The translations under genes were made by a program, and so were the position numbers. 32,631 bases of DNA from Streptomyces sp. RP5T (GTDB taxonomy: Bacteria > Actinomycetota > Actinomycetes > Streptomycetales > Streptomycetaceae): the NCBI RefSeq assembly GCF_003933965.1, contig NZ_RSAJ01000028.1, positions 1 to 32,631 on the forward strand, in the 5' to 3' direction. This document shows, one piece after another, positions 8,503-27,314 of this stretch; the first letter of the stretch is position 1, and every line of letters begins with the position of its first letter. The notes below the pieces were generated by a model. It saw only the letters and a list, made by a program, of their open reading frames with translations. It searched no databases and was not told where the DNA came from.

Positions 8503-10401
8503 TCATGGCACTTCGGTGCGGATCTCCACCGAGGCTGTACCCCACAGCGCGATCCTGCTGCCGGATGGCCCGCCCATGTCCCGCTTGTCACGCTGTCCCC
8601 TCATCACACGCAGCACACGGTCGAGGTCCTCCCCAGAGCCCGGAGACGCAGGGCCCCGTCCTGGCTGGTCGGGCGGCCACGCGGGCAGCTGGAAAGGTTC
8701 CGTGTTCAGAGGGTTCTCCGCGACGATCACCCTGAGCACGTCTTGAGCCGCGGCGCCGCTCACGATTTCCCGCCCCGGGGGCAGGCGCAGCCACACCGGT
8801 TCACCGCGCCGGGCGGTGCCAGCGCACCCGGGGCCGACGAAGTCGCCGTCGAAGAGGTTGACAGAAGACGCGTAGCTGTCGGTCAGGTTCAGCAGCACGC
8901 ACCACAGCCTGGTTCCCGACTGATTATGGATCCGCACTCGCACCTGCGGCTCGCCGCCGTCCAGTGTGTACGAGCAGACGATGTCGCCCGTCTTGCTGGG
9001 CTTAAACCCGCCGACGAGCGGCTCGATACTCACGCGCACCATCGAGGACAGCGAGCTGTCCGGATTGGTGAGGTCGCGCAACTGGTGCCAGCGGGCGATG
9101 TGGGCGCAGCAGTCCGCAATGTGGCGGGCGTCGGCCGCTGTCAGTAGTCGCAACCCGGTGATGGAGTGGCCCGCGCCTCCGGAGACCTCCGCCCAGCCGC
9201 CGCCCGCCTTCACGAACAGGACCAGACCCCGACCGGTGGGCGGCGGTTCCTGCCCGCTGGTGGTCAGCAGGGACGAAGCCGCGACAGCTTCCTCGACGAG
9301 GCGGACCTCGTCCGCCGACCCCGTGACGGTCACTCGTGCAGCCGGGAAGGCAAGCGCCGACGGAGTGACCGTGTACGCGGTGTTCGTGTCCATGTCTGTC
9401 GGCTGCCACGCCACGGGGGCGACGATCGAGGTCTCCGCCCGCACCTCGCGCACGGTCACCACTCGCGGCTGCAGAACGTCCGGTTCGAGAAGGATGAACT
9501 CGGCGCCCGCCGCGCGCAGACCGTGGGCTGCACCGCAGTCCACCTCCCAGCCCGCAGTCGTGTACCGGAGCAGGAAAGGAGAGCTGTCCGTCTTTTCACC
9601 GAGCAGGAAGCGTTCCGTGGCCGGGCCCCGGAACACGGGATGCTGGCCGCGTTGGCGGGCTCGGACGCGTTCCTCGACAAGGGCATAGGCCGCGCCATAT
9701 GTCGCGGCGGGGCCGAGGCGATCGAGCGTGTCCAGCAAGGAGTGAGAGAAGCAGCCGCGGCTCTCGTCTTCGATGAACTCCTCGTACGCCTTCTCGTGCG
9801 GGCGGCAGGCAGCGACCAGTACGTGCTCGGGCGTCAGGCCCGGGGCAGTTGCTCGGACGCCGGCACCGCGGCTGTTCTGGTGGCTGCCGCTGGTCTCCTG
9901 CTGCCACCACGACTTCCATTCGACCGCACGCACGGTCGCGTCGCGGGACTCGCTTCTGTCTTCGCCGCGGGTCGCGCCTCCTGCATGGCAGCAGTCGAGC
10001 ACGGCGAGGACATGGACGCCCTTGCGGGCGATCCTGTCGAGCATGACGCCGAGTTCACTGTCGAGCAGCGGTTGACCGCCGTTGGTGAGGCTGTCGTGGC
10101 ACACCAAGGCCTGGCTGGTGCCGGTCGGCGCGAAGGGGTTGTCGGTGGGGCGTTCACTGCCGTGCCCGCTGAACCAGAACAGGGCCGTGTCGTCCGGTTC
10201 GCTGCTGCCAAGATGCTCCTCGATGCCCTTCCTGAGAGCGGATCGGGTGGCATCCGCGTCGCGCAGACACTCGACCTCGGGCCACACATCAGGCTGTCTG
10301 CGCAGCCACTGCTCGGCGGCCACCACGTCGTTCACGCAGCCAGCCAGGGGAGACACGGGATAGGCGTCGATGCCGACAAAGAGGGCGTACACAGTCCGCA
10401 T
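8503..10401 (-). CDS. Caspase-family (C14) protease with C-terminal accessory domain
   Basis: A 632-residue protein from ATG 10401 (MRTVYALFVGID), preceded by an AGGA eight bases upstream. Residues 1-260 form a caspase/metacaspase domain: the YALFVGIDAY opening strand, ALFWFSGHGSE with the catalytic His at residue 80, and VLAVLDCCHAGG with the catalytic Cys at 138. An EHVLVAACRPHEKAYE strand is followed by the GCFSHSLLDTL substrate-pocket region. The rest (about 290-600) is beta-rich. Its last part, VRVRIHNQSGTRLWCVLLNL followed by LPPGREIVSGAAAQDVLRVI, resembles the DUF4384-like domain often joined to bacterial caspases. No membrane segments are seen. It is transcribed towards the CHAT gene. 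The frame remains open upstream to 10914 but without coding character. Its substrate is unknown; neighbouring genes include no obvious effector. Confidence 0.88.
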   Translation of the reverse strand: MRTVYALFVGIDAYPVSPLAGCVNDVVAAEQWLRRQPDVWPEVECLRDADATRSALRKGIEEHLGSSEPDDTALFWFSGHGSERPTDNPFAPTGTSQALVCHDSLTNGGQPLLDSELGVMLDRIARKGVHVLAVLDCCHAGGATRGEDRSESRDATVRAVEWKSWWQQETSGSHQNSRGAGVRATAPGLTPEHVLVAACRPHEKAYEEFIEDESRGCFSHSLLDTLDRLGPAATYGAAYALVEERVRARQRGQHPVFRGPATERFLLGEKTDSSPFLLRYTTAGWEVDCGAAHGLRAAGAEFILLEPDVLQPRVVTVREVRAETSIVAPVAWQPTDMDTNTAYTVTPSALAFPAARVTVTGSADEVRLVEEAVAASSLLTTSGQEPPPTGRGLVLFVKAGGGWAEVSGGAGHSITGLRLLTAADARHIADCCAHIARWHQLRDLTNPDSSLSSMVRVSIEPLVGGFKPSKTGDIVCSYTLDGGEPQVRVRIHNQSGTRLWCVLLNLTDSYASSVNLFDGDFVGPGCAGTARRGEPVWLRLPPGREIVSGAAAQDVLRVIVAENPLNTEPFQLPAWPPDQPGRGPASPGSGEDLDRVLRVMRGQRDKRDMGGPSGSRIALWGTASVEIRTEVP

Positions 10402-10834
10402 GTGGCGATCCTGCCAGTCGGCGGGGTGACGTGCGGGTGCATTCCGGTAGTTCATGGGACAGATCGCGTGCGTCATAGCGGAGTGCCGACGCAGCCGTTG
10501 TCCCCCCACCACAGACAGCGCACGGGTGTGTTGGGCTTCCCCCGCCAGCCGAATAGCGCAGCCCTGGAACATTGCCCCTTCACCAGTAGTTCTGCCCCGC
10601 CGCTGCATGCCGGGGAACAGCGCATACTCAACCCCTGGGCAAAGCCCGGCACTGTGCCCGCCGTTGACACACCACGGCGGATCCGCAATGGAGCTCGGTC
10701 GGGCCGCGCTGTTGCACCTGCTCCTCCCCCACCGTGTCGTGGGTAAGCAGGGAGCTCGGCGGAGCACTCGATGCGCCGTGCCGACGGTGCCGGCCTCGAT
10801 GCCGACGCCGGGCCGCCTGAAAGACAGGACAAGG
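10402..10834. other. Gene-free stretch upstream of the caspase gene
   Basis: This 433-base region separates the caspase gene start from the 3' end of the lipoprotein gene. Frames here lack coding bias and I see no RNA gene or strong hairpin. It should contain the promoter of the minus-strand caspase gene. Confidence 0.4.
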
Positions 10835-11793
10835 TCAGCCGTTCTGCGCGTCCAGCAGGGCACCCAGGTCCGTGGTGTCCCCGGCGGACGGGGTGGTGAC
10901 GGTGACCGGCTCATTGATCCGGAGGAAGGCGACGGTCATGTCGACGGGATCACCGACGTCGGCTCTTCGCCGGCGTTGACGGGCAACTTGGAGGTGGCGC
11001 CCCGCATGCGGAACTGCCTGGTGCGCCCGTCGTCGTCGATCCACAGATCCATGGTGAGGTTCTTGTCGAGCTCCAGCGCGATGAACTGGTCAAGGCTGTG
11101 GGTCTGGCGTTCCCGGCTGGCCTTGTCGGTGGCAGCATCCTGGGCGTCCCGCAGTCCGTCGAAGGTGACGGTTCCGCGGTAGTGCGTGGTCCGGGCGCCG
11201 AGAATCGTCTCGGCCCCGATCTTCCTCGTGTCCTTGGCGCCAGTCAGCAGCGTGGACTGGACGATCGGGCTGCCCTCGACCTGATGGGGCAGGATGCCGT
11301 AGGACTGGTTGTTCACGGAGATGAGACCCCAGGCCGCCGGCTCGACGCGGAGCCAGCTCTTGCCGTTCAACTTGTCGGGGTCCAGGTTCGCGGATCTCCC
11401 CAACTTGCGGATGTCGAGCGCGCCACCGCCGACGTACATCGCCTTACCAGCGAACCGGATGCTCAGCGGGCGCTTCGCGCGCTGGTCCGGCATCGTCAGT
11501 TCCATGGTCATGGACAGCGGCGCCGTGCTCATGGCTGCGTCGACGGTCAACCGGCCCCGATCCGGCACGGATCCGGTGATCCGGTAACGGAGGGACGTGA
11601 TGTCGGCGGAGTCCTCCGCGGCCTTCGCCACGGCCTCGGCGGGCGTCAGGGCCGGCGCCGGCGGCTGCGCGGACTTGCCGGAACTGCTCTCGCCACCCGT
11701 CCCGCAGGCCCCGGTTCCTCCGCTGAGCAGCACGCACCCGAGGGCTGCACTCGCCACTCTCCGCGACACGGACCGGCGTACGGATATCCCCAT
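10835..11793 (-). pseudogene. Lipoprotein with a frameshift near its C-terminus
   Basis: The protein begins at ATG 11793 (MGISVRRSVSRRV), after a GGGGGAAATC ribosome binding region. It has a basic N-region, a hydrophobic core and a lipobox-like GTGAC with the lipidated Cys at residue 30, so it should be exported and anchored to the outer face of the membrane. The mature part (SLRYRITGSVPDRG, then TMELTMPDQ and DLWIDDDGRTRQFRMRG) has the fold-level look of the LppX/LprAFG-like actinobacterial lipoproteins. The first frame runs into a stop at 10936-10938, just after GEEPTSV. The neighbouring frame carries the expected ending MTVAFLRINEPVTVTTP to the stop at 10835-10837. The shift lies near 10955-10985. 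It may be a sequencing error or a true mutation. Confidence 0.7.
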
Positions 11794-12639: not shown

Positions 12640-14100
12640 TCAGAAGGGGTAGTGCGCTTGCTGGGTGGCGATGGTCACCCAGCGGGTGTTGGAGAACGCC
12701 TCGATTCCCCAACGGCCGCCGAAGCGCCCGAACCCGGAGGCTTTCGCCCCACCGAACGGGGCTTGCGGCTCGTCGGCCACGGACTGGTCGTTGATGTGCA
12801 CGATGCCCGTACGGATCCGGCGCGCCACCGTCAGTCCGTGGGTGGCGTTCTCCGTGATGATGCCGCAGGTCAGGCCGTTGTCCGTGTCGTTGGCGAGGGT
12901 CACCGCGGTGTCGTCGTCGGTGAAGGTCTCAATGACGCAGACCGGGCCGAACGCCTCCGCGTGGTACAGGTCCGCGTCCCTCGGGACCTCGGTGAGGACG
13001 GTCGCCGGGTGGACCGCGCCGTCCGGTTCACCACCGCCGACCAGGACCTTCGCACCCTTCGCCACGGCGTCCGCGACCAGGTCGGCCACCCGCCGTGCGG
13101 CCTGTGCGCTCACCAGCGGGCCCACGACCGTGTACGGCTCCCCGGGGTCGCCGGCCGCCAGCGAGTCCGCCTTCGCGGTGAACTTCCGGGTGAACTCCTC
13201 CGCCAGGGACTCGTGGACGAGGATCCGGTCGCCGGACATGCAGATCTGCCCGGCGTTCATGAACACGCTGAACGACACCGCGTCCACGGCGTAGTCCACG
13301 TCCGCGTCGTCGAGGACGAGCACCGCGTTCTTGCCACCCAACTCCAGCAGGGACGGCTTGAGGTGACGGGCTGCCAGCTCTCCGACGGTCCTCCCGACAA
13401 CCGTGGAACCGGTGAAGTTCACCGCCCGCACCCGCTCGTCTGCGATCAGCGTCTCGGCGATCTCGGCCGCGTCCTCACGGGCGTTGGTGATGACGTTGAG
13501 CACTCCGTCCGGCAGCCCGGCCTCCCGCAGCACGTCGGCGACCAGCAGCCCGCAGGCGATCGGTGCGTCCTCGCTCGCCTTGACGACGACCGTGTTGCCC
13601 GCGGCCAAGGGCGCCGCCACGGCGCGCACGCCCAGGATGACGGGTGCGTTCCAGGGAGCGAACGCGGCGACCACGCCCAGCGGTTCGCGCACCGCCAGGC
13701 CCAGCGCACCATGTTCCTGCGCGCTGAGCACCTCGCCGCGCGGGGCGGTGATCGCGGCCGCGGCCTCGCGCAGGATGTTCGCCGCCAACCCCACGTTGAA
13801 GAACGCCCACGGCCGGGTGCCGCCCACCTCCTGCGCCATGAGGTCGGCGACCTGTGTGCCGCGTCCGTCCAGCAGGTCGGCGGCCCTCAGGAAGATCGCC
13901 CGACGGGCGAAGGGGGCCAGTGCAGCCCACTCCTCGAACGCCGCGTCGGCTGCGTCCACGGCACGCACGACGTCCTCGGGACCGGCGGCGGCGACGGTGG
14001 CGTACACCTCCCCGGTGAAGGGGTTGATGTCGTCGGTGGTGCGGCCGGAGGCGGCGGGCACGTCTCTGCCGGCGATGTGCAGGTCTCGGGTGATGGCCAT
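12640..14100 (-). CDS. Benzaldehyde-type NAD(P)-dependent aldehyde dehydrogenase
   Basis: A 486-residue member of the aldehyde dehydrogenase superfamily, of the usual length. Visible motifs are APWNAPVILG, the nucleotide-binding NFTGSTVVGR, the general base Glu in LLELGGKN, the nucleophile Cys in NAGQICMSGDRI, and the C-terminal EAFGPVCVI and PFGGAKASGFGRFGG. It resembles the vanillin/salicylaldehyde/benzaldehyde branch. It is the third gene after the decarboxylase and the LDH-like dehydrogenase, so the likely reaction is oxidation of benzaldehyde (or a ring-substituted form) to benzoate. The start ATG 14100 has AAGGAG nine bases upstream. Cytoplasmic. The exact ring substitution cannot be read from sequence. 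Confidence 0.88.
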   Translation of the reverse strand: MAITRDLHIAGRDVPAASGRTTDDINPFTGEVYATVAAAGPEDVVRAVDAADAAFEEWAALAPFARRAIFLRAADLLDGRGTQVADLMAQEVGGTRPWAFFNVGLAANILREAAAAITAPRGEVLSAQEHGALGLAVREPLGVVAAFAPWNAPVILGVRAVAAPLAAGNTVVVKASEDAPIACGLLVADVLREAGLPDGVLNVITNAREDAAEIAETLIADERVRAVNFTGSTVVGRTVGELAARHLKPSLLELGGKNAVLVLDDADVDYAVDAVSFSVFMNAGQICMSGDRILVHESLAEEFTRKFTAKADSLAAGDPGEPYTVVGPLVSAQAARRVADLVADAVAKGAKVLVGGGEPDGAVHPATVLTEVPRDADLYHAEAFGPVCVIETFTDDDTAVTLANDTDNGLTCGIITENATHGLTVARRIRTGIVHINDQSVADEPQAPFGGAKASGFGRFGGRWGIEAFSNTRWVTIATQQAHYPF

Positions 14101-14158: not shown

Positions 14159-15100
14159 TCAGGACTGCCGGGCCACGACCTGGTCGGTCAGTTCGGAGGC
14201 GCTTGCCTCGACACGGGCCGCGGCCCGGACCATGCCGTCCGCTTCCTCCTCCGGCAGGTCCCAGGCCGCTATGCGGCGTACGCCTTCGGGCCCGAGTTCG
14301 ACGGGCACGGTGAGGCTGGTGCCGTGCACGCCGTACTCGCCGTCCAGCACGACAGAGGCGGGGACAAGGGTTCCGGAACCGGTGGCGATCGCCTCGATGA
14401 GGCGGGCGGTGCCCAGGCCGGTGGTCCAGGTGGAGGTGCGGCCGGAGTCCAGGGCGACGTGCTTGGAGTACCAGGTGTCCACGTACTCCTCGGCGGCCGA
14501 CCGCTGTTCGTCGCTGAGCACGACGGGCTCCCCGCCGACCGTGACCCGGCTGTACAGCGGGACCTGGCCCTCGCCGTGCTCGCCGAGCATCCAGGCGTCG
14601 ACGTCCCTCGGCGGCACGCCGAGTGCGAACGCGATCCCGGTGCGCAGCCGGAGGCTGTCGTTGAGGGTGTAGCCGATCAGCCGCTCGCGGGGCAGCCAGC
14701 CCTGCCGCTGCACCCAGGTCAGCAGCGGGTCGACGGGGTTGGTGAGCAGGAGCACCAGTCCGACGAAGTCCGCTCCCGCCTCCCGCAGGGGACGAAGGCA
14801 CTCGTTCACGATCCGCGCGTTGTCGGCGAGGAAGACCGAACGGGAGGAGTTCAGCCGCAGGGGGACGGCGGCGCTCAGCACGACCACGTCCGCGTCGAGC
14901 GCGTCCTCCGGGGTGCCGCCCCGGACGGTGTCGGCGGTGGCGCCGAGGCCGAGGGCGTTCTCCAGGTCCATGGTGTGGCTGGTGATCATGTTCGGGCGGG
15001 TGTCGACGAGCACGATCTCGTACGTCCCCTGCGCGGAGAGCAGATTGAACGCGGCGGAGGAGCCGATGCCGCCGGCGCCTCCGATGATGACGACCTTCAC
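14159..15100 (-). CDS. LDH/MDH-fold 2-hydroxyacid dehydrogenase, possibly for mandelate
   Basis: A 313-residue member of the lactate/malate dehydrogenase superfamily from GTG 15100, with GGAAGG eight bases upstream. It has the Rossmann motif GGAGGIG (7-13), Asp33 that favours NAD, LLTNPVD (119-124), Asp148 and Arg151 in the LNDSLRLR segment, and the catalytic His175 in LGEHGEGQVP. In the substrate loop, aligning VPLRLNSSR with the Bacillus LDH loop NQKPGETR puts Leu81 where LDH has Gln102 and MDH has Arg, while Arg87 keeps the role of Arg109. A hydrophobic residue there suits a bulky nonpolar 2-hydroxyacid. It lies between the benzoylformate decarboxylase and the aldehyde dehydrogenase, so oxidation of mandelate to benzoylformate is the natural proposal. 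The known mandelate dehydrogenases are mostly of other folds. Function is inferred. Confidence 0.8.
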   Translation of the reverse strand: MKVVIIGGAGGIGSSAAFNLLSAQGTYEIVLVDTRPNMITSHTMDLENALGLGATADTVRGGTPEDALDADVVVLSAAVPLRLNSSRSVFLADNARIVNECLRPLREAGADFVGLVLLLTNPVDPLLTWVQRQGWLPRERLIGYTLNDSLRLRTGIAFALGVPPRDVDAWMLGEHGEGQVPLYSRVTVGGEPVVLSDEQRSAAEEYVDTWYSKHVALDSGRTSTWTTGLGTARLIEAIATGSGTLVPASVVLDGEYGVHGTSLTVPVELGPEGVRRIAAWDLPEEEADGMVRAAARVEASASELTDQVVARQS

Positions 15101-15139: not shown

Positions 15140-16768
15140 TCAGGAGGAGTAGTGGGCGTCGGCCTCGACGGTGACCTCGAGCACGAGCGGCTCATGCCGG
15201 TCCGCCAGCGTAGGCAGGACCTTGTCCAGTACGGACAGCAACGCGACGTGGTCCTCGACCCGTTCGGCCGGGCAGCCCAGCCCCCGGGCGAGGGTCGACA
15301 CGCTCAGCTCGGTGAACGCGGGCCAGGCCGGGGCCGCCGAGCCCTCACGCTCGGAGAGGCGGTCCATGATCGCGTAGCGGCCGTTGGCGAGGACGACGAA
15401 CAGGACGCCGATGCCGTAGTGGGCGGCGCTCCACAGGGCCTGGATCGAGTAAAGGGAGGAGCCGTCGCCGAGCACGGCCACGACGGGCCGGTCCGGGGCG
15501 CCGTGGCGGACTCCGATCGCGGCCGGCATGGCGAAGCCCAGCCCGCCCATGGCCGCGCTGAGGAAGCCGAGCGGCGCGCGGGCGGGCAGCAGCCGGTGCA
15601 GGTCCGGGCGGCTGGAGGGGGTCTCCTCGACCACCACGGCCTTCGGATCGAGCCGCTCGGCGAGGGCGGCCAGTACGTGAGCGGCCCGCAGGGGCTCACC
15701 GGGCGCGGGGGACTGGGGCGTTGTTGGCCGATTCAGTACCGAGGAACGCGGCACGTCGGGCACCAGTGGCGCCAACCGGCGTACGGTGTCGGCCGGTTCG
15801 GCGAGCAGGATCAGCTCCGCCGGGCTGCGGTGAGCCTCCTCCCGATCGTCCGTGATGACGGCGACCCGGGTGCCCGCCACAGTGAAGTCGCCCGGAGCGT
15901 AGGTGTATTGACGGAACGCGGCGGCTCCGACGGCCAGGACCGTGTCGTACGGGGCGAGCGCCTCGCGCAGTGCGGGGCGGACCGCGGGGAGGTGGCCGGC
16001 AAAGAGACGGTGGTCCTGGGGGAATCCCGCACGGGCGCCGAACGGCTCCTGGTAGACCGGGCAGTCGAGGCGCTCGGCCAGCGTGACGAGCGCCTGCCAG
16101 CCGTCCGCCGAGTCGTTGCCGGCGCCCGCCACGAGACAGGGCGATTCGGCGGCCGTCAAGAGCGCGCCGAGGTCGGCCAGAGCGTCGTCGGAGGCCGTAC
16201 GACTGCCTCGTACCGCGAGCGGCTCGCGCGGCGCACCCGGAGCGACATCCTCCTCGGCCTCGGCGAACCAGTCGTCCATCGGGACCACGACGACCGCCGG
16301 GCCACGGCCTTCCTGGGCCTCGTGCCAGGCGCGGGCCACGGCGCCGGGGACATCCTGCGGACGGGCCGGCGTGTGCTGCCATACCGGGTACTCCCCCGCC
16401 AGGCCGTCCAACCTGCCGGCCAGGAAGGGCTCGTGGGCCAGATGCCGGCGGTCCTGCTGGCCCACGATCACCACCAGGGGCGCGCGGTTCGCGCGGGCGG
16501 TGGCCAGGGCGCTGACGGCGTTGCCGTATCCGGCGGTGGTGTGCAACAGGACGAGCGCGGGGCGACCGGTGGCCAGGGCGCTGCCGGAGGCCATCCCGAC
16601 GACCGAGCCCTCGTGCAGGCCGAGCACGAAGGAGATGTCGGCCGGCAGGTCGGCGAGGAAGCCGACCTCGGTGGAGCCCGGATTGCTGAAGAGGGTGGTG
16701 AGGTCGTACTCGCGCAGAACGTCGAAGGTCTGTTCCTTGACGGTCCTGGCGTGGGCGGCCGTGGTCAT
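15140..16768 (-). CDS. Benzoylformate decarboxylase-like ThDP enzyme
   Basis: A 542-residue thiamine diphosphate enzyme, close in length and motif order to Pseudomonas benzoylformate decarboxylase (MdlC). It has FSNPGSTE with Ser32 (the BFD Ser26 position), the cofactor-activating Glu53 in LHEGSVVGMA, and His76 in LLHTTAGYGN (the BFD His70 position). The ThDP/Mg motif runs from GDGSS to ANGRYA, and GGLGFAMPAAIGV lies before it. The BFD His281 site (FRYHQYDPG) reads FRQYTYAPG here, with Tyr288 in place of His. The expected reaction is 2-oxo-2-phenylacetate to benzaldehyde plus CO2. It is the first gene of a three-gene operon; ATG 16768 follows an AAAGGGG region. A different 2-oxoacid is possible given the His substitution. 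Confidence 0.85.
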   Translation of the reverse strand: MTTAAHARTVKEQTFDVLREYDLTTLFSNPGSTEVGFLADLPADISFVLGLHEGSVVGMASGSALATGRPALVLLHTTAGYGNAVSALATARANRAPLVVIVGQQDRRHLAHEPFLAGRLDGLAGEYPVWQHTPARPQDVPGAVARAWHEAQEGRGPAVVVVPMDDWFAEAEEDVAPGAPREPLAVRGSRTASDDALADLGALLTAAESPCLVAGAGNDSADGWQALVTLAERLDCPVYQEPFGARAGFPQDHRLFAGHLPAVRPALREALAPYDTVLAVGAAAFRQYTYAPGDFTVAGTRVAVITDDREEAHRSPAELILLAEPADTVRRLAPLVPDVPRSSVLNRPTTPQSPAPGEPLRAAHVLAALAERLDPKAVVVEETPSSRPDLHRLLPARAPLGFLSAAMGGLGFAMPAAIGVRHGAPDRPVVAVLGDGSSLYSIQALWSAAHYGIGVLFVVLANGRYAIMDRLSEREGSAAPAWPAFTELSVSTLARGLGCPAERVEDHVALLSVLDKVLPTLADRHEPLVLEVTVEADAHYSS

Positions 16769-16873: not shown

Positions 16874-17608
16874 TCATTCGACCCCGGGCAGAACCGCTCC
16901 AGTGGACAGTTCGCCGCGCAACCGGCCGGTGATGCGGCGGGCTGTGTCGAGGACGGCCTCGATCTGTGGCGGGCCGGGGTGTTCGACGGTGAAGGCGATC
17001 GACACGGCGGCGACGGCGTGGCCGGGCGCCGACACGACCGGTGCCGAGATCGTCCCGAGGCCGCGCACGACCTCGTTGCGTGTGGTGGCGTATCCGCTGG
17101 CCCGCGCCCGGCTGATCTCCGGTCGCTCACCGAGCAGTTGGGGCTCGGCGGACAGCATGGCAATGCCCGGGGAGCCCAGGGTCAGCGGATGCCGGTCGCC
17201 GGGGCTGTAGACGGTGCGCGAGCGCGTGCTCTCGACCTCGACGGAGACCAGCGTCACCGCTTCTTCGCCGTCCCGGACGACGAAGAAGGAGGTCAGGCCC
17301 ACCCGCGCGGCCAGCCTGGCGATCTCCGGTTTGGCGATCCGCTGGAGCATGGGCAGGGTGCGCCGGCCCAGTGACTGGGCGCGGGTGCCGATGACGTACC
17401 CGTGGGTGGTGTGCGCGACCAGGTGGTGGTCCTGGAGGGTGCGCAGCAGGCGGTAGACGATCGAGCGGTGCAGCCCCATCTGCTGGCTCAGTTCGGCCAG
17501 TGTCAGCGGCACGTCCGACAACGCGATCACTTCCAGGAGCCTGAGCCCCCGGTCCAGGGTCTGAACGGAGGGCCGGCTCGGCGGGGGGTCTTCAGCGGGT
17601 CGGGTCAT
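16874..17608 (-). CDS. IclR-family transcriptional regulator
   Basis: A 244-residue protein with the two-domain IclR layout. The N-terminal winged helix (about 15-75) includes SVQTLDRGLRLLEVIAL and LAELSQQMGLHRSIVYRLLR. The C-terminal effector domain (about 85-240) includes FFVVRDGEEAVTLVSVE, RHPLTLGSPGIAML, GYATTRNEVVRGLGTISAPV and AVAAVSIAF. Its ATG overlaps the stop of the nitrilase gene in ATGA, so it belongs to the amidase-nitrilase operon. IclR proteins commonly control aromatic-acid and hydroxyacid catabolism and respond to a pathway metabolite. The inverted repeats at 16831, 20046 and 20173 are candidate binding sites. Repressor or activator mode cannot be told from sequence. Confidence 0.92.
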   Translation of the reverse strand: MTRPAEDPPPSRPSVQTLDRGLRLLEVIALSDVPLTLAELSQQMGLHRSIVYRLLRTLQDHHLVAHTTHGYVIGTRAQSLGRRTLPMLQRIAKPEIARLAARVGLTSFFVVRDGEEAVTLVSVEVESTRSRTVYSPGDRHPLTLGSPGIAMLSAEPQLLGERPEISRARASGYATTRNEVVRGLGTISAPVVSAPGHAVAAVSIAFTVEHPGPPQIEAVLDTARRITGRLRGELSTGAVLPGVE

Positions 17609-18615
17609 GGTCCGATGATCTCGTCGTCCAGCGCCGGGAACACGCTCTCGGCGGGAACCGCCTCACCGAGCACGGGGCGGCGGGCTTCGCGCCGGTGAAC
17701 GAGGTACGTGGCGTCGGCGCGTGCGTAGTGCCCGGCCGGGTCGTAGGCGTTCTTCGCGAGGTCGATCTCGTCGAGGTCGATGTCGGCGTACACCAGTGCC
17801 TCCTCGCCCTCGTCGACGTCCTTGGTGAGGGTACGTCCGTCGGGGCCGAAGATCCGTGAGCACCCGCCGCCGGCGGTGAGCAGGCGGCGCTGCTCGGGCG
17901 TGGACGCGAAGACGTCGATGCCGGCCGGGGAGATGACCTGGGTGGCCATCAGGACGAAGGCGCTGCCCTCGATGGCGTAGACCTGGGACGCGGCGATGTT
18001 GGCCTCGGCGCTGAGCTGGAAGGCGAGGTCGCGGTAGAGACCGAAACACGGCCAACTGGCCACGTGCACCTGCTCGTTCTGCGCGTACAGGGCGTACTTG
18101 CTGAGCGGCTGCAGGTGTTCGGCGCAGTTCAGGGCCCCGAGCCGGCCGAGCGCGCTGTCGACGACCTTCAGGTCGCTGCCGTCGCCCTCGCCGAACAAGG
18201 TGCGCTCGACGTGGGTCGGCTTGAGCTTGCGGCGGTGCAGCAGCACGCTGCCGTCGGCGGCGATCACGGTCTGGGTGATGTAGAGGCTGCCGTGGTCCTT
18301 CTCGCTGTATCCGAGCGCGACGGTGATGCCGTGCTGCCGGGCGGCGCGGCGGATGGTGGTCAGTCCGTCGCCGTCGGGGGCGAGCGAGGCGGCGTGGTAG
18401 CGGCCGACGAAGGGGACCTGGTCGGCGACCGCGCCCAGCCACAGGAAGTGCGGGTAGCCGGGAATCCACACTTCCGGGAAGGCGATGAGCGAGGCACCGC
18501 CCCGGGCCGCTTCCGCGATCAGGTCGACGGTCTTGGCGACCCCGGCCTCGGCGTCGAGCCAGGCGGGCTCGGCCTGGACGGCCGCGGCCTTGAACCGGCG
18601 GATGGTGTCTGTCAT
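17605..18615 (-). CDS. Nitrilase, arylacetonitrilase type
   Basis: A 336-residue carbon-nitrogen hydrolase, the usual nitrilase length. The catalytic triad is present: Glu48 in AFPEVWIPGYP, Lys130 in HRRKLKPTHVER and Cys164 in LGALNCAEHLQPL. Most nitrilases have CWE at the nucleophile. Here it is CAE, with Ala165 after the Cys. The same Ala is, to my recollection, reported at the same position in the Pseudomonas fluorescens EBC191 arylacetonitrilase, which turns mandelonitrile into mandelate plus some mandelamide. The likely reaction is hydrolysis of an alpha-hydroxy aryl nitrile to the acid and ammonia. The start ATG 18615 has AAGGAG well placed; an ATG at 18639 overlaps the amidase stop but lacks such a site. 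It overlaps the IclR gene by four bases. Confidence 0.9.
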   Translation of the reverse strand: MTDTIRRFKAAAVQAEPAWLDAEAGVAKTVDLIAEAARGGASLIAFPEVWIPGYPHFLWLGAVADQVPFVGRYHAASLAPDGDGLTTIRRAARQHGITVALGYSEKDHGSLYITQTVIAADGSVLLHRRKLKPTHVERTLFGEGDGSDLKVVDSALGRLGALNCAEHLQPLSKYALYAQNEQVHVASWPCFGLYRDLAFQLSAEANIAASQVYAIEGSAFVLMATQVISPAGIDVFASTPEQRRLLTAGGGCSRIFGPDGRTLTKDVDEGEEALVYADIDLDEIDLAKNAYDPAGHYARADATYLVHRREARRPVLGEAVPAESVFPALDDEIIGP

Positions 18616-18635
18616 GTCCGGTCGTCTCCTTCTCT

Positions 18636-20003
18636 TCATGCTCCCGCTTCCAGGAGCTTTTCGACCAGCAGGCCGAGGCCCAGGAGCCGTCGGTCGGTGT
18701 TCCAGGGCGCGTCGAGCGCCACCCCCACCGGAAGTCCCGGGCCCGCCGACCGGACGGGCACGGTGAGGCCGGGAACAGCGGCGACGCTGCCGGGTCCCGT
18801 GTTGCGGATGTAGGTGGGGAAGGACGGGCGCAGGACACCGTCGAGCCGTACACGTTCGGTGTCGGTGTCGATGCGTCCGGCGGGCAGGGGGGTGGTCGGG
18901 AAGAGCACGGCATGGGCTCCGGTTTCGCGGAAGATCCGCCGGTAGCCGTCCACGAGGACACGGTCGCGGACCTCGATGGCGACCTTGTACGCCGTCTCGG
19001 TGACCGCCTGCGGGAACACGACCCGCTCCATGGTCGTGCGTACGTCCGGGTGGGTGATGCGGGTCAGGAGTTCCGCCGGATCGATGCCACCCGTCGCCGT
19101 GCTCAGATACTCGGGCAGCTGCCTGGCCGCCTCGTAGAGGGTGATCGGGAATCCGGCCCGTTCCTCGGCCGTCTCGACCTCCGGCAGCCGTACCGGCACG
19201 AGCCTGACCCCGGCACTCCTCAGGACGTCCAGGGAGTGCTCCCACATCTCGGCGGTACGGGGATGCAGGGGCTCGGTGAAGTGGTGCTCGGGTACTGCGA
19301 GCACGACATCGCGCGGGTAGGGTTCCTCGGCCTGGGCGTGGTCGGCGGCGAGGACGGCATCCAGCAGGACCAGGTCCGCGACGGTCGGAGCCATGGGTCC
19401 GATGGTGTCGCGGGTCCACGACAGCGGGGTCACTCCCCCGGCCGGGTAACGGCCCGTGGTCGGGCGGAGACCGGCAATGCCGGTGAGCGCGGCCGGGACG
19501 CGGACCGAGCCGCCGGTGTCGGTGCCCAGCCCGGCCGGGGCCAGACCCGCGGCGACGGCCGTGGCCGTGCCGCCGCTGCTTCCGCCCGCGAAACGGCTGG
19601 GGTCGGCCGGATTGCGGGCGGGGCCGTACGGGCCGCCCGCGGTGGTGGCTCCCAGGGCGAGCTCGTGCATGTTGGTCTTGCCCAGCACGATCGCGCCTGC
19701 GGCGCGCAGCCGGGTGATCGCCTGCGCGTCGCGGTCCGGGACGAATCCGGCGAGCGCCTCGCAGCCCGCGGTGTTGGGGAGTCCGGCGACATGGATGTTG
19801 TCCTTGACCGCGATCGGCAGCCCATGCAGCGGGCCCCGCGCGGGGCCACGGTCCGCCGCTGCGGCCTCGGCGAGAGCGCGGTCGGCGTCGAGGGTGACGT
19901 AGGCCCCCAGGTTGCCGGCCCGCTCGGCACGTGTGAGGAGTTCCTCGGTGAGCGAGACGCTGGTGGACGTCCCGGCGGCGAGCCGGGAGAGGGCGGTGTG
20001 CAT
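18636..20003 (-). CDS. Amidase-signature hydrolase (possible mandelamide hydrolase)
   Basis: A 455-residue amidase-signature enzyme with the full Ser-cisSer-Lys triad: Lys67 in PIAVKDNIHVAG, cis-Ser142 in FAGGSSGGTA and the nucleophile Ser166 in GTDTGGSVRVPAAL. Family members of this size include indoleacetamide and mandelamide hydrolases. It is the first gene of the minus-strand operon and is followed 20 bases later by the nitrilase. A nitrilase with an Ala next to its Cys may release part of its product as amide, and this enzyme would recover it as acid plus ammonia. Cytoplasmic, with no signal peptide. The start ATG 20003 is preceded by only a weak ribosome binding site. The precise amide is inferred from context. 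Confidence 0.9.
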   Translation of the reverse strand: MHTALSRLAAGTSTSVSLTEELLTRAERAGNLGAYVTLDADRALAEAAAADRGPARGPLHGLPIAVKDNIHVAGLPNTAGCEALAGFVPDRDAQAITRLRAAGAIVLGKTNMHELALGATTAGGPYGPARNPADPSRFAGGSSGGTATAVAAGLAPAGLGTDTGGSVRVPAALTGIAGLRPTTGRYPAGGVTPLSWTRDTIGPMAPTVADLVLLDAVLAADHAQAEEPYPRDVVLAVPEHHFTEPLHPRTAEMWEHSLDVLRSAGVRLVPVRLPEVETAEERAGFPITLYEAARQLPEYLSTATGGIDPAELLTRITHPDVRTTMERVVFPQAVTETAYKVAIEVRDRVLVDGYRRIFRETGAHAVLFPTTPLPAGRIDTDTERVRLDGVLRPSFPTYIRNTGPGSVAAVPGLTVPVRSAGPGLPVGVALDAPWNTDRRLLGLGLLVEKLLEAGA

Positions 20004-20189: not shown

Positions 20190-20289
20190 CATGCCCTGTC
20201 CAGGCTCCGACGGCGGGCCTACGTTCGCGGCCACATCCTCCAGCCGCCGCAGTCCGCGACCCGCGGCTCAAGGCCTTCCGGAGCCCGCA

Positions 20290-21612
20290 ATGAAACACCC
20301 CGCGATCAAGCCCTCCCGCCGCAGCGTCCTCAGAGGCCTCGGAGCCACTGCCGTGGCGGCCTCCCCGATCCTCTCCGCCTGTTCCTCCGGCCTCAAGGGC
20401 TCGGGCACCTCGACCGGCGACACCATCAAGATCGGCTACGTCAGCCCGCGCACCGGCGCCTACGCGGCCTTCGCCGAGTCCGACGCATACATCCTCCAGC
20501 AGGTGCGTGCCTTCTTCGCCAAGGGGATCACCCACGACGGCAAGAACTACGACGTGAAGATCCTGGACCGCGACACCGGCTCGGACCCCCAGCAGGCGGC
20601 CACCATCGCGGACGAGCTGATCTCCCAGCAGCAGGTCGACCTGGTCCTCGTCACCGCGACGCCGGACACGATCCACCCGGTGGCGGCCAAGTGCGAGAGC
20701 GAGGGCGTGCCCTGCGTCTCGACCATCGAGCCCTGGCAGGCCTGGTTCTTCGGACGCGGCGGCACCCCGAAGAAGACCTTCACGTACACGTTCCACTTCT
20801 TCGACGGCATCGAGCACGTGGCCAGGGTCGAGAGCGACATGTGGCGGCAGCACGCCACCAACAAGAAGGTCGGCGTGCTGTGGCCCAACGACTCCGACGG
20901 CAACGCCTTCCGCGACAAGACCACCGGTTACCGCGCGCAGCCCCCGACCAAGGGCTTCACCTTCGTCGACCCCGGTTCCTACGAGCCCGGCACCAAGGAC
21001 TTCTCGTCGATCATCGCGGACTTCAAGAAGGAGGGTGTCGAGATCCTCGCCGGCGTGCCCTCGCCGCCCGACTTCGCGACGTTCTGGACCCAGGCCGCGC
21101 AGCAGAACTTCAAGCCCAAGGTCGCCACCATCTCCAAGGCCATCCTCTTCGAGTCGACGGTGGCCTCCCTGCCGAACAACCTCGGCAACGGCCTGTGCAC
21201 GGCGAGCTGGTGGGTGCCGCAGTTCCCGTTCACCTCCACGATCACCGGTCAGACGGCCACCGCGCTCGCCGACGACTACGAGAAGTCCCCGCTGTCCAAG
21301 GGCCGTTCGTGGAACCAGGGGCTCGGCCCCAACCACGCCCTGTTCGAGGTCGCCAACCACGTCCTGCGCAACACCAACCCCAAGGACCGCGAGGCCGTCG
21401 CCGCCCAGATCGCGAAGACCAGCCTCGACACCGTCCTCGGCCACCTCTCCTGGACCGGCGGCGGTGCGGCCAACCCGGTCAAGAACGTCGCCACCATCCC
21501 CATGGTCGGCACCCAGTGGGTCAAGGGCAGCGGTGAGGCGTACGAACTGAAGGTCATCAGCAACAGCTTGCTGCCCGAGGTCAAGCCCGACGCCGATGCG
21601 GCGGAACTGTGA
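20290..21612 (+). CDS. ABC transporter substrate-binding lipoprotein (Liv/amide type)
   Basis: A 440-residue type-1 periplasmic-binding-fold protein. The N-terminus has a twin-arginine pattern SRRSVLRG, a hydrophobic stretch and the lipobox LSAC with Cys31, so it should be exported folded by Tat and lipid-anchored. The mature part (IKIGYVSPRTGAYAAFAES; DRDTGSDPQQAATIADELIS; KKVGVLWPNDSDGNAF) matches the branched-chain amino acid/amide/urea receptor family. An aromatic-rich middle segment (EPWQAWFFGRG) could line a pocket for an aromatic ligand, which is speculative. It is the first gene of five, and its stop overlaps the start of the next gene. The ligand is probably the aromatic acid, amide or nitrile handled by the divergent operon. 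Confidence 0.88.
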   Translation: MKHPAIKPSRRSVLRGLGATAVAASPILSACSSGLKGSGTSTGDTIKIGYVSPRTGAYAAFAESDAYILQQVRAFFAKGITHDGKNYDVKILDRDTGSDPQQAATIADELISQQQVDLVLVTATPDTIHPVAAKCESEGVPCVSTIEPWQAWFFGRGGTPKKTFTYTFHFFDGIEHVARVESDMWRQHATNKKVGVLWPNDSDGNAFRDKTTGYRAQPPTKGFTFVDPGSYEPGTKDFSSIIADFKKEGVEILAGVPSPPDFATFWTQAAQQNFKPKVATISKAILFESTVASLPNNLGNGLCTASWWVPQFPFTSTITGQTATALADDYEKSPLSKGRSWNQGLGPNHALFEVANHVLRNTNPKDREAVAAQIAKTSLDTVLGHLSWTGGGAANPVKNVATIPMVGTQWVKGSGEAYELKVISNSLLPEVKPDADAAEL

Positions 21613-22337
21613 CCGGCCCCCTGCTCGAAGTGGACCATCTCGCCGTGCACTTCGGGGAGTTGCGGGTCCTGGAGGACGTCGGGCTGACCATACCCCGGGG
21701 GCAGGCCGTCGGCATCGTCGGCCCGAACGGCGCGGGCAAGTCGACCCTGCTCAGTGCGATCTCGGGCGTCGAGCGCGCGACTGCGGGTTCCGTGCGGCTG
21801 GCGGGCCGCGATGTCACCCGCACCTCCGCGGCGCAGCGATGCCGGCTCGGCGTCGGCCGCTCCTTCCAGATACCGCGCCCCTTCGGCGACCTGACCGTGT
21901 TCGAGAACGCCCTGGTCGGCGCCGAGCGGGGAGCCCGGCTGCGCGGCGCCTCCGCCCGCGAGCAGGCCCTGCGCGCGCTGGAGACCGCCGGGCTGCTCCA
22001 CCTCGCCAACAAGCCCGCCGGTTCCCTGCCCCTCCTCGGCCGCAAACGGCTGGAGCTGGCGCGGGCGCTCGCCACCAGCCCCGACCTGCTCCTCCTCGAC
22101 GAGATCGCGGGCGGCCTCACCGAGGCCGAGGCGGAGGAACTCGTCGCCACCGTGCTGTCCCTGAAGGAGTCCGGCGTGACGATCCTGTGGATCGAGCATG
22201 TCGTCAAGGCCCTGGTCCAGGTCGTCGACCGGCTCGTCTGCCTCGCCTACGGCCGGATCCGCGTCGACGGCGACCCGCACGAGGTACTGGCCAGCGACGA
22301 GGTCGCGGAGGTCTATCTGGGAGGTACGGCGGCATGA
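21609..22337 (+). CDS. ABC transporter ATP-binding protein, LivG type
   Basis: A 242-residue ATPase starting at GTG 21609, overlapping the previous stop by four bases. Walker A is GPNGAGKS (about 37-44), the Q-loop region is RSFQIPRPFGDLTVFEN, and Walker B is LLLLDEI followed by the AGGLTEAE D-loop. The ABC signature is the relaxed LPLLGRKRLELARAL, as usual for LivG. The switch His is in WIEHVV. It powers import together with the LivF-type partner. Confidence 0.93.
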   Translation: MTGPLLEVDHLAVHFGELRVLEDVGLTIPRGQAVGIVGPNGAGKSTLLSAISGVERATAGSVRLAGRDVTRTSAAQRCRLGVGRSFQIPRPFGDLTVFENALVGAERGARLRGASAREQALRALETAGLLHLANKPAGSLPLLGRKRLELARALATSPDLLLLDEIAGGLTEAEAEELVATVLSLKESGVTILWIEHVVKALVQVVDRLVCLAYGRIRVDGDPHEVLASDEVAEVYLGGTAA

Positions 22338-23062
22338 GCACGCTGCTGCGAGTCGACTCCGTCGATGCCGGATACGGCGACTTCCAGGCCCTGTTCGGCA
22401 TCGACCTCGACGTGGCCGAGGGTGAGCTGCTCGCCCTCGTCGGCGCCAACGGAGCAGGAAAATCAACCCTGTTGAAAACCATCGCGGGAGCCCTGAAGCC
22501 CTTCCGCGGCACCGTCGGCCTGGCCGGTGAGGACGTCACCGCCGAGCCGGACATCCGCCGGGCCCGCAAGGGTGTCTGTCTGGTCCCGGAGGGCCGCCGG
22601 CTCTTCCCGTCGCTCACCGTGGAGGAGAACCTCCAGGTGGGCGCAGCCACCGGGCGCAAGGGCCCCTGGAACCTGGCCAAGGTGTACGAGGCGATGCCGC
22701 TCGTCGCCGACCGCCGTACCCGCAAGGCGGCCCGACTCTCCGGCGGTGAGCAGCAGGCCGTCGCCATCGGCCGCGCCCTGATGGGCAATCCGCGTCTGCT
22801 GCTGCTCGACGAGGTCTCCCTGGGCCTGGCCCCGCTCGTCGTGGACCAGCTCTACACGGCGCTGCCCGGTATCCGCGCCGAGGGCGCGACCGTGATCCTG
22901 GTCGAGCAGGACCTGAACCGCACGTTCGCCGTGGCGGACCGCATCGCGTGTGTCCTGGAGGGCCGGATCGTGCTGACCGGCCAAGCGGCCGGACTGACCC
23001 GCGACGAGGTGACCGCCGCGTACTTCGGCACCGGTGCCTTCCCGGAGGTGAAGACCCCATGA
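22334..23062 (+). CDS. ABC transporter ATP-binding protein, LivF type
   Basis: A 242-residue ATPase from ATG 22334, overlapping the LivG stop in ATGA. Walker A is GANGAGKSTLLKT, the family marker CLVPEGRRLFPSLTVEENL is present, the signature is LSGGEQQAVAIGRAL, and Walker B is LLLLDEVSLGLAP. The canonical switch His is replaced: VILVEQDLNRTF, as is usual for LivF. It forms the ATPase heterodimer of the importer. Confidence 0.93.
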   Translation: MSTLLRVDSVDAGYGDFQALFGIDLDVAEGELLALVGANGAGKSTLLKTIAGALKPFRGTVGLAGEDVTAEPDIRRARKGVCLVPEGRRLFPSLTVEENLQVGAATGRKGPWNLAKVYEAMPLVADRRTRKAARLSGGEQQAVAIGRALMGNPRLLLLDEVSLGLAPLVVDQLYTALPGIRAEGATVILVEQDLNRTFAVADRIACVLEGRIVLTGQAAGLTRDEVTAAYFGTGAFPEVKTP

Positions 23063-23931
23063 ACTGGCTCAACGCAATCCTGCAGGGCGTCCTGCTCGGC
23101 GGCATCTTCGCCATGGCCGCCGCGGGACTGTCCCTCGTCTTCGGCGTGATGCGGATCGCCAACCTCGCCCACGGGGACCTGATGATCCTCGGCGGTTACG
23201 TGGCCTCGGTGACCGCTGCCCACTACGGCGTCCCGGTCCCCGTCACCGTCGTGGTGTCGATGATCGCGGTGGGCGGGCTCGGCTACCTGGTCCAACGCTC
23301 CCTGCTGGACCGGGCGATGGGCCTCGGCGAACTCGCCCCGATGCTGGTCACCTTCGGTATCTCGGTGATCATCCCGAACGTCCTGGTCCAGGTGTTCAGC
23401 AGCGACGCGCAGCCCCTGCCCATCGGCTCGCTCGGCACCGCGAGCATCGACCTCGGCGCCGGCCTGGCCATCGGCTGGTTCCCCCTGATCACGGTGGGCG
23501 CGGCGGTGGCGGTCCTCTCCTCCCTCCACCTCTTCCTCTTCCGCACGCAGCCCGGCCGCATAGTCCGGGCCACGTCCGACGACCGCGCGGTGGTCCGCCT
23601 CATGGGCGTCGACAACCGCCGCGTGTACGCCCTGACGTCGGTCATCGCCTTCGCGACGGTGGCCCTGGCCGGTGTCCTTTACACGATGCGGCAGGGCGGA
23701 GTCACCCCCTTCGAGGGTCAGCTCACCGTCCTGTTCGCCTTCGAGACGGTCATCATCGGCGGCCTCGGCTCCCTGTGGGGCACGCTCGCGGGTGGCGTGG
23801 TGCTCGGTGTGGCGCAGTCCGTCGGCGCCCAGATCTCCCCGGACCTTCCCCTGCTCGCGGGGCACGTGGTCTTCCTCCTGGTCCTGGTGTTCCGCCCGCA
23901 GGGCCTGTTCGGCAGGAGTGTCCTCGCATGA
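23059..23931 (+). CDS. ABC transporter permease, LivH type
   Basis: A 290-residue integral membrane protein from ATG 23059, again overlapping the upstream stop by four bases. It has about eight hydrophobic segments, the LivH opening QGVLLGGIFAMAAAGLSLVF, the marker ANLAHGDLMILGGYV near residues 38-52, and GGLGSLWGTLAGGVVLGV near the end. It forms one half of the membrane channel. Confidence 0.93.
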   Translation: MNWLNAILQGVLLGGIFAMAAAGLSLVFGVMRIANLAHGDLMILGGYVASVTAAHYGVPVPVTVVVSMIAVGGLGYLVQRSLLDRAMGLGELAPMLVTFGISVIIPNVLVQVFSSDAQPLPIGSLGTASIDLGAGLAIGWFPLITVGAAVAVLSSLHLFLFRTQPGRIVRATSDDRAVVRLMGVDNRRVYALTSVIAFATVALAGVLYTMRQGGVTPFEGQLTVLFAFETVIIGGLGSLWGTLAGGVVLGVAQSVGAQISPDLPLLAGHVVFLLVLVFRPQGLFGRSVLA

Positions 23932-24944
23932 CCGTCCAGACAGCCCCCGCCCCCGAGGCGACCGCACTGCCGGCCGTACACCGGGGTGGCCGCGCGACCG
24001 TCCTGGGCCTGGCAGGAACGGCCGTCGTCCTCCTGACGATGGTGGCCCTCCCCTACGTCGTCGAGTCGGGGGTGACGGCCCAACTGGTCAAGCTCTGCTA
24101 CCTGGTGGCCCTGGCCTCCATGTGGAACCTGCTCGCGGGGTACGCGGGCATGATGTCGATGGGCCAGCAGGCGTTCATCGGCATGGGCGCCTACCTGCTG
24201 TTCGTCGTCAACGACCACGGCGTGAACGTCTACGCCGGCACGCTCGTCGTCTCCGCCGCGGTGGCTCTGCTCGCCTGGCCGGTGTCCTACCTCGCCTTCC
24301 GCCTGCGCGGCGGCTACTTCGCCGTCGGCACCTGGGTGATCGCCGAGGTCGTCCGCCTGATCGTGGTCCGCTTCGACTCCCTGGGCGCTGCAAGTGGACG
24401 CACCCTCTCGGACGTCACCACCGATCCGGTGCTGCGGCGCGCCTTCACCTACTGGCTGGCGCTCGCCGTCATGGCCGCGGCCGTGCTCGGCACCTACGCC
24501 GTCCTGCGCAGCCGCCTCGGCCTGAGCCTGCAGGCCATCCGCGACGACGACACCGCCGCCGGTTCCCTCGGCGTGAACGTCACCCGGGGCAAGCGGACCA
24601 TCTACATCACCGCGGCCGCCGGCTGTGCCGCCGCCGGTGCGGTGATCTGCGTGAACAGCCTGGGGGTGGCGTCACCGACGCAGATCTTCGGGGTGCAGTA
24701 CTCGGCCCTGATGGTCTTCATGGTGATCATCGGCGGCATCGGCACGATCGAGGGCCCGGTCATCGGCGCAATCGCGTACTTCCTCCTCGACAAGTACTTC
24801 GCCCAGAGCGGCGTCTGGTACCTGATCGTGGTGGGCGCGGCCGCGATCGTGGTCTCCCTGTATCTGCCGCGGGGGTTGTGGGGGACGCTGGCCCACCGCA
24901 CGGGCTTCGCCGTCTTCCCGGTGCGCCATACGGTCCGGTCATAG
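23928..24944 (+). CDS. ABC transporter permease, LivM type
   Basis: A 338-residue integral membrane protein from ATG 23928, overlapping the LivH stop in ATGA. The LivM markers NLLAGYAGMMSMGQQAFIGM (about 68-87), LRGGYFAVGTWVIAEVVRL and VIIGGIGTIEGPVIGA are present with about nine hydrophobic segments. It completes the five-gene importer. Confidence 0.93.
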   Translation: MTVQTAPAPEATALPAVHRGGRATVLGLAGTAVVLLTMVALPYVVESGVTAQLVKLCYLVALASMWNLLAGYAGMMSMGQQAFIGMGAYLLFVVNDHGVNVYAGTLVVSAAVALLAWPVSYLAFRLRGGYFAVGTWVIAEVVRLIVVRFDSLGAASGRTLSDVTTDPVLRRAFTYWLALAVMAAAVLGTYAVLRSRLGLSLQAIRDDDTAAGSLGVNVTRGKRTIYITAAAGCAAAGAVICVNSLGVASPTQIFGVQYSALMVFMVIIGGIGTIEGPVIGAIAYFLLDKYFAQSGVWYLIVVGAAAIVVSLYLPRGLWGTLAHRTGFAVFPVRHTVRS

Positions 24945-27050: not shown

Positions 27051-27056
27051 CGCTCC

Positions 27057-27314
27057 TCAGGCATCCAGGTCGCGTGCGATCAGGTCGGCGATCACATCGA
27101 TCGCCGCCGGATCCTCACCGGCCACCTCTACGGTGTCCCCCCGCTGGGCGCCAAGGGTCATGATCAGCAGCGCCGAGGAGGCGTCAACCGCTTCCTCGCC
27201 CGGCTTGGCGAGTGTGATGCCGGCGTCGTACTCGCTCACCGCTGCCGCGATGAGTGCGGCAGGACGGGCGTGCAGTCCGACGGCGGAACCGACGGTCACA
27301 GTGCGGGAGGGCAT
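27057..27314 (-). CDS. ptsH: HPr phosphocarrier protein
   Basis: An 85-residue HPr from ATG 27314 (MPSRTVTVGSAVGLHARPA), the standard size. His15 in GLHARPA is the phosphorylated residue, and Ser46 occupies the regulatory site. It transfers phosphate from enzyme I to EIIA. It forms a two-gene operon with ptsI, divergent from the EIIBCA operon. Streptomyces normally encode their general HPr and EI elsewhere in the genome, so this pair is probably a dedicated second set; that cannot be checked in this window. Confidence 0.94.
   Translation of the reverse strand: MPSRTVTVGSAVGLHARPAALIAAAVSEYDAGITLAKPGEEAVDASSALLIMTLGAQRGDTVEVAGEDPAAIDVIADLIARDLDA

Follow-up and report, generated by a model that had tools for sequence, protein, structure and literature searches.

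A putative mandelate-type dehydrogenase of the lactate/malate dehydrogenase fold in a conserved Streptomyces gene cluster

Judged by its sequence and the genes around it, a gene of Streptomyces sp. RP5T probably specifies a dedicated L-2-hydroxyacid dehydrogenase, dependent on NAD, whose substrate would be (S)-mandelate or an (S)-mandelate hydroxylated on the ring, converted to an aroylformate. The gene lies in a 32,631-nucleotide stretch of DNA, analysed whole and here called the window, and the protein has the fold of L-lactate and malate dehydrogenases (LDH/MDH). The role is assigned because the step from a 2-hydroxyacid derived from a nitrile or amide to the substrate of a benzoylformate decarboxylase (BFD) homologue needs a 2-hydroxyacid dehydrogenase, and the LDH-fold enzyme is the sole one within the cluster. 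A first-pass annotation had called it the only such enzyme in the pathway. That is true of the cluster and not of the genome, which contains one more LDH/MDH gene, of MDH-like type, and encodes two FMN_dh-family proteins of full length. The wider proposal, whose chances we judge to be about even, is that a natural NAD-dependent (S)-mandelate or (S)-4-hydroxymandelate dehydrogenase arose in the LDH/MDH fold as an unnamed subfamily with Leu at position 102, replacing the flavin enzyme in a Streptomyces route from aromatic cyanogenic glucosides or nitriles to benzoates, with some strains carrying their own GH3 glycosidase. The cluster genes and the selectivity loop of the LDH-fold enzyme are located as follows.

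12640..14100, minus strand: aldehyde dehydrogenase (ALDH), 486 aa; nearest solved structures are salicylaldehyde, vanillin and 4-hydroxybenzaldehyde dehydrogenases
14159..15100, minus strand: LDH/MDH-fold 2-hydroxyacid dehydrogenase, putative NAD-dependent (S)-mandelate/(S)-hydroxymandelate dehydrogenase, 313 aa; begins with GTG at 15100, and its stop codon ends at 14159
14840..14869, minus strand: selectivity loop AVPLRLNSSR of the LDH-fold enzyme, codons 78-87; Leu81 at 102 and Arg87 at 109 in LDH numbering
15140..16768, minus strand: BFD-family ThDP enzyme, 542 aa, putative aroylformate decarboxylase; NF005485 478 bits (cut-off 493), BFD structure 4q9d 311 bits
16874..17608, minus strand: IclR-family regulator (Pfam)
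17605..18639, minus strand: nitrilase (CN_hydrolase, Pfam), start ATG at 18639 or 18615; Nit6803 model 218 bits (cut-off 503)
18636..20003, minus strand: amidase-signature hydrolase, putative mandelamide hydrolase; scores highest, at 499 bits, with the indoleacetamide hydrolase model (cut-off 532)
20191..21612, plus strand: Liv-type ABC transporter substrate-binding protein (PF13458), conserved, start uncertain
21609..22337, plus strand: ABC ATPase, LivG-type (Pfam, NCBIfam)
22334..23062, plus strand: ABC ATPase, LivF-type; start by comparison with locus L038
23059..23931, plus strand: ABC permease, LivH-type (Pfam); start by comparison with orthologues
23928..24944, plus strand: ABC permease, LivM-type (Pfam); start inferred

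The minus-strand genes follow the order amidase, nitrilase, IclR, BFD, LDH-fold enzyme and ALDH, and the Liv-type transporter genes diverge from them on the plus strand. Amidase and nitrilase, and nitrilase and IclR, overlap by 4 bases, and the gaps before BFD, LDH and ALDH are 105, 39 and 58 bases; these overlaps and short gaps suit a single operon. No racemase-family member was found by Pfam among the cluster genes scanned. Close to the transporter, at 25365-32381, are genes for PTS enzyme I and a GH1 glycosidase (Pfam) together with EIIBC-like and BglG-like genes. A link between these PTS/GH1/antiterminator genes and the cluster was rejected: at E 1e-10 none of them had a match in six orthologous regions fetched at greater length (of which the G226 region extends only ~4 kb past LivM), and the PTS/GH1 genes are therefore regarded as chance neighbours. 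On the other side of the window, a CHAT-domain protein gene (5652-8498, plus strand; Pfam) stands tail to tail with the gene of a large, caspase-like-looking protein (8503-10914, minus strand).

The LDH/MDH fold claimed at first reading was borne out. Both Ldh_1 domains, the sole Pfam domains found in the protein, score above their gathering cut-offs (Ldh_1_N 80.4 bits, cut-off 27; Ldh_1_C 56.9 bits, cut-off 22.6), and the top PDB match by phmmer is the malate dehydrogenase 4bgu (E 6.2e-44, residues 2-299). Haloarchaeal-type malate dehydrogenases come first among the nearest solved structures, followed by lactate dehydrogenases. The Pfam scan gave no match to PF01070 (FMN_dh), the domain by which an FMN-dependent (S)-mandelate dehydrogenase would be recognised. 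Since the protein scores below the cut-offs of all ten curated LDH/MDH models listed from NCBIfam (best, 171 bits), it belongs to no named LDH or MDH family. Its score with the L-lactate dehydrogenase model TIGR01771 is 171 of 303.55 bits, and residue 102 is Leu, not Gln; for malate dehydrogenase the scores are 171/550 (NF041314), 129/352 (TIGR01763) and 171/283 bits (NF004863), and residue 102 is not Arg.

The active site was compared in LDH numbering, where we take His195, Asp168, Arg171, Arg109 and Asn140 to be the catalytic set and position 102 to be the selectivity site; the numbers of Leu81, Arg82, Arg87, Asp148, Arg151 and His175 were checked by script. The set is kept as H175, D148, R151, R87 and N121, and the three of these residues cited in the first-pass annotation (His175, Asp148 and Arg151) had been numbered correctly. 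All five, as well as Leu81, are invariant in 12 aligned rows, made up of the window protein with its 11 orthologues (72-96% identity), and are also common to two paralogues (35-37%). From Ala77 to Arg87 the loop aligns with MDH with zero gaps (AAVPLRLNSSR / AGIPRQPGQTR) and is likewise gap-free against typical LDH rows. This alignment places Leu81 opposite Arg102, as had been proposed, and Arg82 at 103, so that Arg82 does not take the selectivity position, the placement that would have spoken against the first-pass reading. The extended specificity loop of the HicDH/FrsC type is absent, in an alignment that holds no named HicDH; a Nicoliella row annotated as L-LDH in the same alignment has a longer loop. 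Asp33, at the end of beta-2, suggests a preference for NAD. Ka/Ks values of 0.13-0.28 against five orthologues indicate purifying selection on the gene.

Structure prediction, put forward earlier as a check, served for the fold and failed for the loop. The AlphaFold model built from the 12 rows was weak (mean pLDDT 57.8, pTM 0.57), with loop 78-87 below 50, and a single-sequence model was poorer (pLDDT 46). Searching with the 57.8-pLDDT model, Foldseek returned full-length LDH/MDH matches, the best at E 1.8e-19. As a prediction, the model is good enough for fold assignment and too weak for docking; the placement of the Leu81 side chain consequently relies on the alignment. Viral contigs were scanned to deepen that alignment, and no relative was confirmed among them.

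In a 17-row tree the LDH-fold protein, its orthologues and the two paralogues form one clade with support of 100/98, a separateness that concerns the tree's own rows alone, because its LDH/MDH references are few and include no named HicDH. As the sister group of this clade stand three haloarchaeal plasmid-borne 'lactate dehydrogenases', in which residue 102 is Arg and the loop has an insertion. These proteins (L042 5950-6897, L078 250-1209, L083 3692-4645) have Glu at the place of Asp168, and their annotated neighbours are enolase-superfamily and DHDPS-like genes (L042) or CaiB and amidase genes (L083). The paralogues (L009 1501-2418 in G094, L010 1471-2394 in G187) retain Leu81 and the W-T-T and N-D-[ST]-L-R-L-R motifs, are without the beta-2 Asp (IGR) and adjoin a putative methyltransferase gene, not a BFD gene; they are perhaps NADP-linked. 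A plasmid search gave 94 records matching the LDH-fold protein, none with at least 60% identity, and in a phylum sample of 396 genomes its own genome was the sole match at E 1e-60.

The BFD homologue scores 311 bits with BFD against 101 for other ThDP families, and its NF005485 score is just under the cut-off. For the active-site Ser, Glu and His of a BFD the homologue has S32, E53 and H76, which do not vary among 10 aligned rows. Where the P. putida BFD has His281, the homologue has Tyr288; Tyr is also found there in 4q9d and in all ten rows. The ALDH scores 454 bits with salicylaldehyde, 452 with vanillin, 394 with NahF and 352 with 4-hydroxybenzaldehyde dehydrogenase, against 250 with phenylacetaldehyde dehydrogenase; it is thus nearest to benzaldehyde-type dehydrogenases, which favours a benzaldehyde-like substrate, and it lies below every NCBIfam cut-off shown (best model, 351 of 638 bits). 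For the nitrilase, the nearest solved match is NitA (6zby, 355 bits). Because BFD, nitrilase and ALDH all score under their cut-offs, no partner substrate is fixed by a curated model.

Orthologues of the LDH-fold gene were compared at 11 loci, ten from Streptomyces and one from Kibdelosporangium. BFD, IclR, amidase and ALDH genes adjoin it in 10 of the 11. The nitrilase gene lies between amidase and IclR in nine, and in L021 a nitrilase (61%) sits past the transporter. Transporter genes are present in eight loci, the fetched pieces of L017 and L019 stopping short of the transporter position. The Kibdelosporangium orthologue (72%) is solitary, with no BFD, ALDH, nitrilase or amidase match within 20.9 kb. 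In G226, L017 and L019 the cluster also includes GH3 glycosidase and MFS transporter genes (Pfam, on the G226 copies), and L018 contains a GH3 remnant of 47 residues. The in-cluster GH3 would suit aromatic beta-glucosides, such as cyanogenic glucosides, as putative substrates.

The LDH-fold and BFD proteins were searched for in a genus sample of 295 genomes. At E 1e-45 the LDH-fold protein matched in nine genomes, seven with orthologues at 80-100% and two with paralogues at 37-38%. At E 1e-100 the BFD homologue matched in 16, namely the seven LDH-orthologue genomes at 77-100% and nine others at 61-66%, and within this sample those nine lack the LDH-fold orthologue. Since the seven genomes are related, the co-occurrence does not amount to seven independent events and no probability is attached to it. 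Two of the clusters are reduced: G228 and G108 (orthologue 80%) have no ALDH near the LDH-fold gene, and in G228, where a 33% ALDH match is ~16 kb off, the amidase is missing and the nitrilase match covers only 114 residues, yet LDH and BFD are kept. At the nine distant BFD loci (L069-L077; pieces of 12.8-17 kb), matches above 60 bits included no LDH orthologue, nitrilase or amidase (0/9), and an ALDH match came directly after BFD in five and nearby in one. Pfam scans of ten neighbour proteins at six of these loci found MFS transporters in five, two of which also had IclR, and SDR and GntR in G122. Several of the nine resemble the bzf clusters of Pseudomonas. A Nonomuraea BFD (60% identical) has no LDH match within its 21.6 kb.

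From these data we infer all the pathway substrates and the direction of the LDH-fold reaction. A plant hydroxynitrile of the mandelonitrile type, or its amide, would be imported by the Liv-type transporter. The nitrilase would convert the nitrile to the 2-hydroxyacid, and the amidase may bring by-product or imported amide to the same acid. The LDH-fold enzyme would then oxidise the 2-hydroxyacid, presumably of S configuration given the fold, to the aroylformate, which the BFD homologue would decarboxylate to the aromatic aldehyde and the ALDH would oxidise to benzoate or hydroxybenzoate, with IclR as the likely regulator of the cluster. In the dehydrogenase itself, His175 and Asp148 are predicted to form the proton relay, Arg151 to bind the carboxylate, Arg87 on the closing loop to polarise the carbonyl, and Leu81 to provide a non-polar wall for the ring. 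The designation mandelate dehydrogenase is retained as a role read from context, feeding the BFD homologue and an aromatic ALDH, and the comparative data strengthen it. It is not retained for mandelate itself, as a ring-hydroxylated mandelate fits at least as well: homologues of 4-hydroxybenzoate 3-monooxygenase are present, and a search for the two benzoate-route enzymes BenA and BoxB gave no BenA above its cut-off and no BoxB match. Evidence against the mandelate-type reading comes from the solitary Kibdelosporangium orthologue, the reduced clusters of G228 and G108, the partners' scores under curated cut-offs, Tyr288 of the BFD homologue, the Nonomuraea BFD without an LDH match, the weak structure model and the inactivity of FrsC, an aromatic-specific member of the superfamily, on phenylglyoxylate.

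In its strict form, that the specific substrate is 4-hydroxymandelate or another ring-oxygenated mandelate, derived from dhurrin-type nitriles or lignin fragments and passed on to 4-hydroxybenzoate and protocatechuate, with mandelate as a side substrate, this alternative earns tentative credence. Three PobA-like proteins scanned in the organism's own genome all exceed the NF006091 cut-off (630, 592 and 448 vs 351 bits), where the BenA model reaches 97 bits against a cut-off of 781 and BoxB has no match. A BFD is reported to accept 4-hydroxybenzoylformate (PMC7760541). Relatives of the ALDH act on hydroxylated benzaldehydes, and Arg82, next to Leu81, could contact a phenol. Against this, the PobA-like proteins fall under the stricter TIGR02360 cut-off, the cluster is without a PobA-type gene, and genes of this type are common in Streptomyces.

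The same genome (G000) contains a gene above the 4HPPD-model cut-off beside FMN_dh and aminotransferase-like genes (C419; L029 99-1466, 2601-3650). We read it, from this context, as hydroxymandelate-synthase-like, and it could supply (S)-4-hydroxymandelate; the gene group perhaps serves hydroxyphenylglycine biosynthesis. A link to 4-hydroxyphenylglycine antibiotics was nevertheless dismissed as an explanation of the cluster: the 4HPPD gene has matches in 72 of the 295 genomes (E 1e-60), but of the seven genomes with the LDH orthologue G000 alone is among them.

It is unlikely that the enzyme serves instead as a phenyllactate or branched 2-hydroxyacid dehydrogenase in an FrsC/HicDH-like role, with the ThDP enzyme as a phenylpyruvate-type decarboxylase. 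A hydrophobic residue 102 would accommodate arylmethyl or alkyl groups as well, and FrsC is a member of the fold specialised to phenylpyruvate, but the loop insertion described for FrsC and HicDH (PMC9299796) is absent. The partners also disagree with it: the ALDH is nearest to benzaldehyde-type enzymes (452-454 bits, vs 250 for phenylacetaldehyde dehydrogenase), and the ThDP enzyme resembles BFD most. Still less probable is a mainly reductive enzyme that would serve overflow or detoxification by making the (S)-hydroxyacid from aroylformate or from a toxic 2-oxoacid. LDH/MDH equilibria do lie towards the 2-hydroxyacid, which favours reduction; however, BFD and ALDH downstream would draw the reaction to oxidation, nitrilase and amidase upstream would supply the hydroxyacid, and the import and IclR genes suggest catabolism. 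That an ordinary malate or lactate dehydrogenase stands in the operon by chance is very improbable despite the fold and the malate dehydrogenase at the top of the PDB matches, given the missed cut-offs of all listed curated LDH/MDH models, a residue 102 that is neither Arg nor Gln, another MDH-like gene in the genome and co-occurrence with a close BFD in the same 7/295 genomes.

If the proposed oxidation of (S)-mandelate or its ring-hydroxylated form is right, a well-studied fold gains a new physiological reaction, on a substrate whose ring sits directly on the carbinol carbon, and the mandelate pathway gains a clean non-orthologous replacement. The synthesis or resolution of mandelic acids could then draw on an (S)-mandelate dehydrogenase that is soluble and NAD-dependent, and the gene would mark those Streptomyces that may live on cyanogenic compounds of plants.

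The mandelate pathway is known from the mdl operon of P. putida, in which MdlB is an FMN-dependent (S)-mandelate dehydrogenase. D-mandelate dehydrogenases are NAD-dependent and of the D-2-hydroxyacid or ketopantoate-reductase type. The Streptomyces enzyme would share the proposed reaction with both, on a fold unrelated to either. A search of titles and abstract openings in the open-access literature found no LDH/MDH-fold mandelate dehydrogenase named, and a review of mandelic acid from 2025 (PMC12388565) nowhere uses the terms 'lactate dehydrogenase' and 'malate dehydrogenase' in its main text.

Two aromatic-specific members of the superfamily are described in a single report (PMC9299796). FrsC, the L-phenyllactate dehydrogenase of FR900359 biosynthesis, is a phenylpyruvate reductase. 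It falls in the cytosolic-like MDH clade, has Ser102 and a loop lengthened by five residues, and is described there as inactive on phenylglyoxylate. Like FrsC, the Streptomyces enzyme would be a superfamily member recruited to an aromatic 2-hydroxyacid with residue 102 altered; FrsC is biosynthetic and reductive, whereas the Streptomyces enzyme has no insertion, has Leu102 and stands in a catabolic context. TcAHADH, the aromatic L-alpha-hydroxyacid dehydrogenase of Trypanosoma cruzi, has in common with the Streptomyces enzyme an insertion-free loop and a small non-polar residue at 102 (Ala102), and also acts on an aromatic substrate, in its case an arylpyruvate. TcAHADH belongs to the cytosolic-like MDH clade in that report and, although outside the 17-row tree, presumably represents a lineage separate from the Streptomyces clade. 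To expect an aromatic side chain from a hydrophobic residue 102 is thus reasonable and not decisive, as FrsC combines Ser102 with an insertion and TcAHADH has Ala102 without one (PMC9299796). Because these two enzymes are known, an aromatic-specific LDH/MDH-fold enzyme is not in itself new, and the first-pass description as a new type has to be narrowed: the new part would be the proposed mandelate-type reaction, the subfamily and the catabolic-cluster setting.

At the level of the cluster, the closest likeness is to Pseudomonas fluorescens EBC191, in which a nitrilase active on mandelonitrile lies close to genes of the mandelate pathway and to one resembling indoleacetamide hydrolase (PMC8955678). 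Nitrilase, indoleacetamide-hydrolase-type amidase and mandelate-pathway functions thus stand together in both, in Streptomyces by gene family only. Compared with EBC191 and the P. putida mdl genes, the Streptomyces cluster differs in its LDH/MDH-fold dehydrogenase, IclR regulator and Liv-type ABC transporter, and in having no racemase among the scanned genes. The bzf cluster of Pseudomonas sp. LLC-1 also combines BFD, aldehyde dehydrogenase and a transporter; it has no mandelate dehydrogenase and is reported to support growth on benzoylformate, not on mandelate (PMC7760541). It is the five MFS-BFD loci of other Streptomyces that resemble bzf, whereas the cluster in the window resembles the EBC191 type instead.
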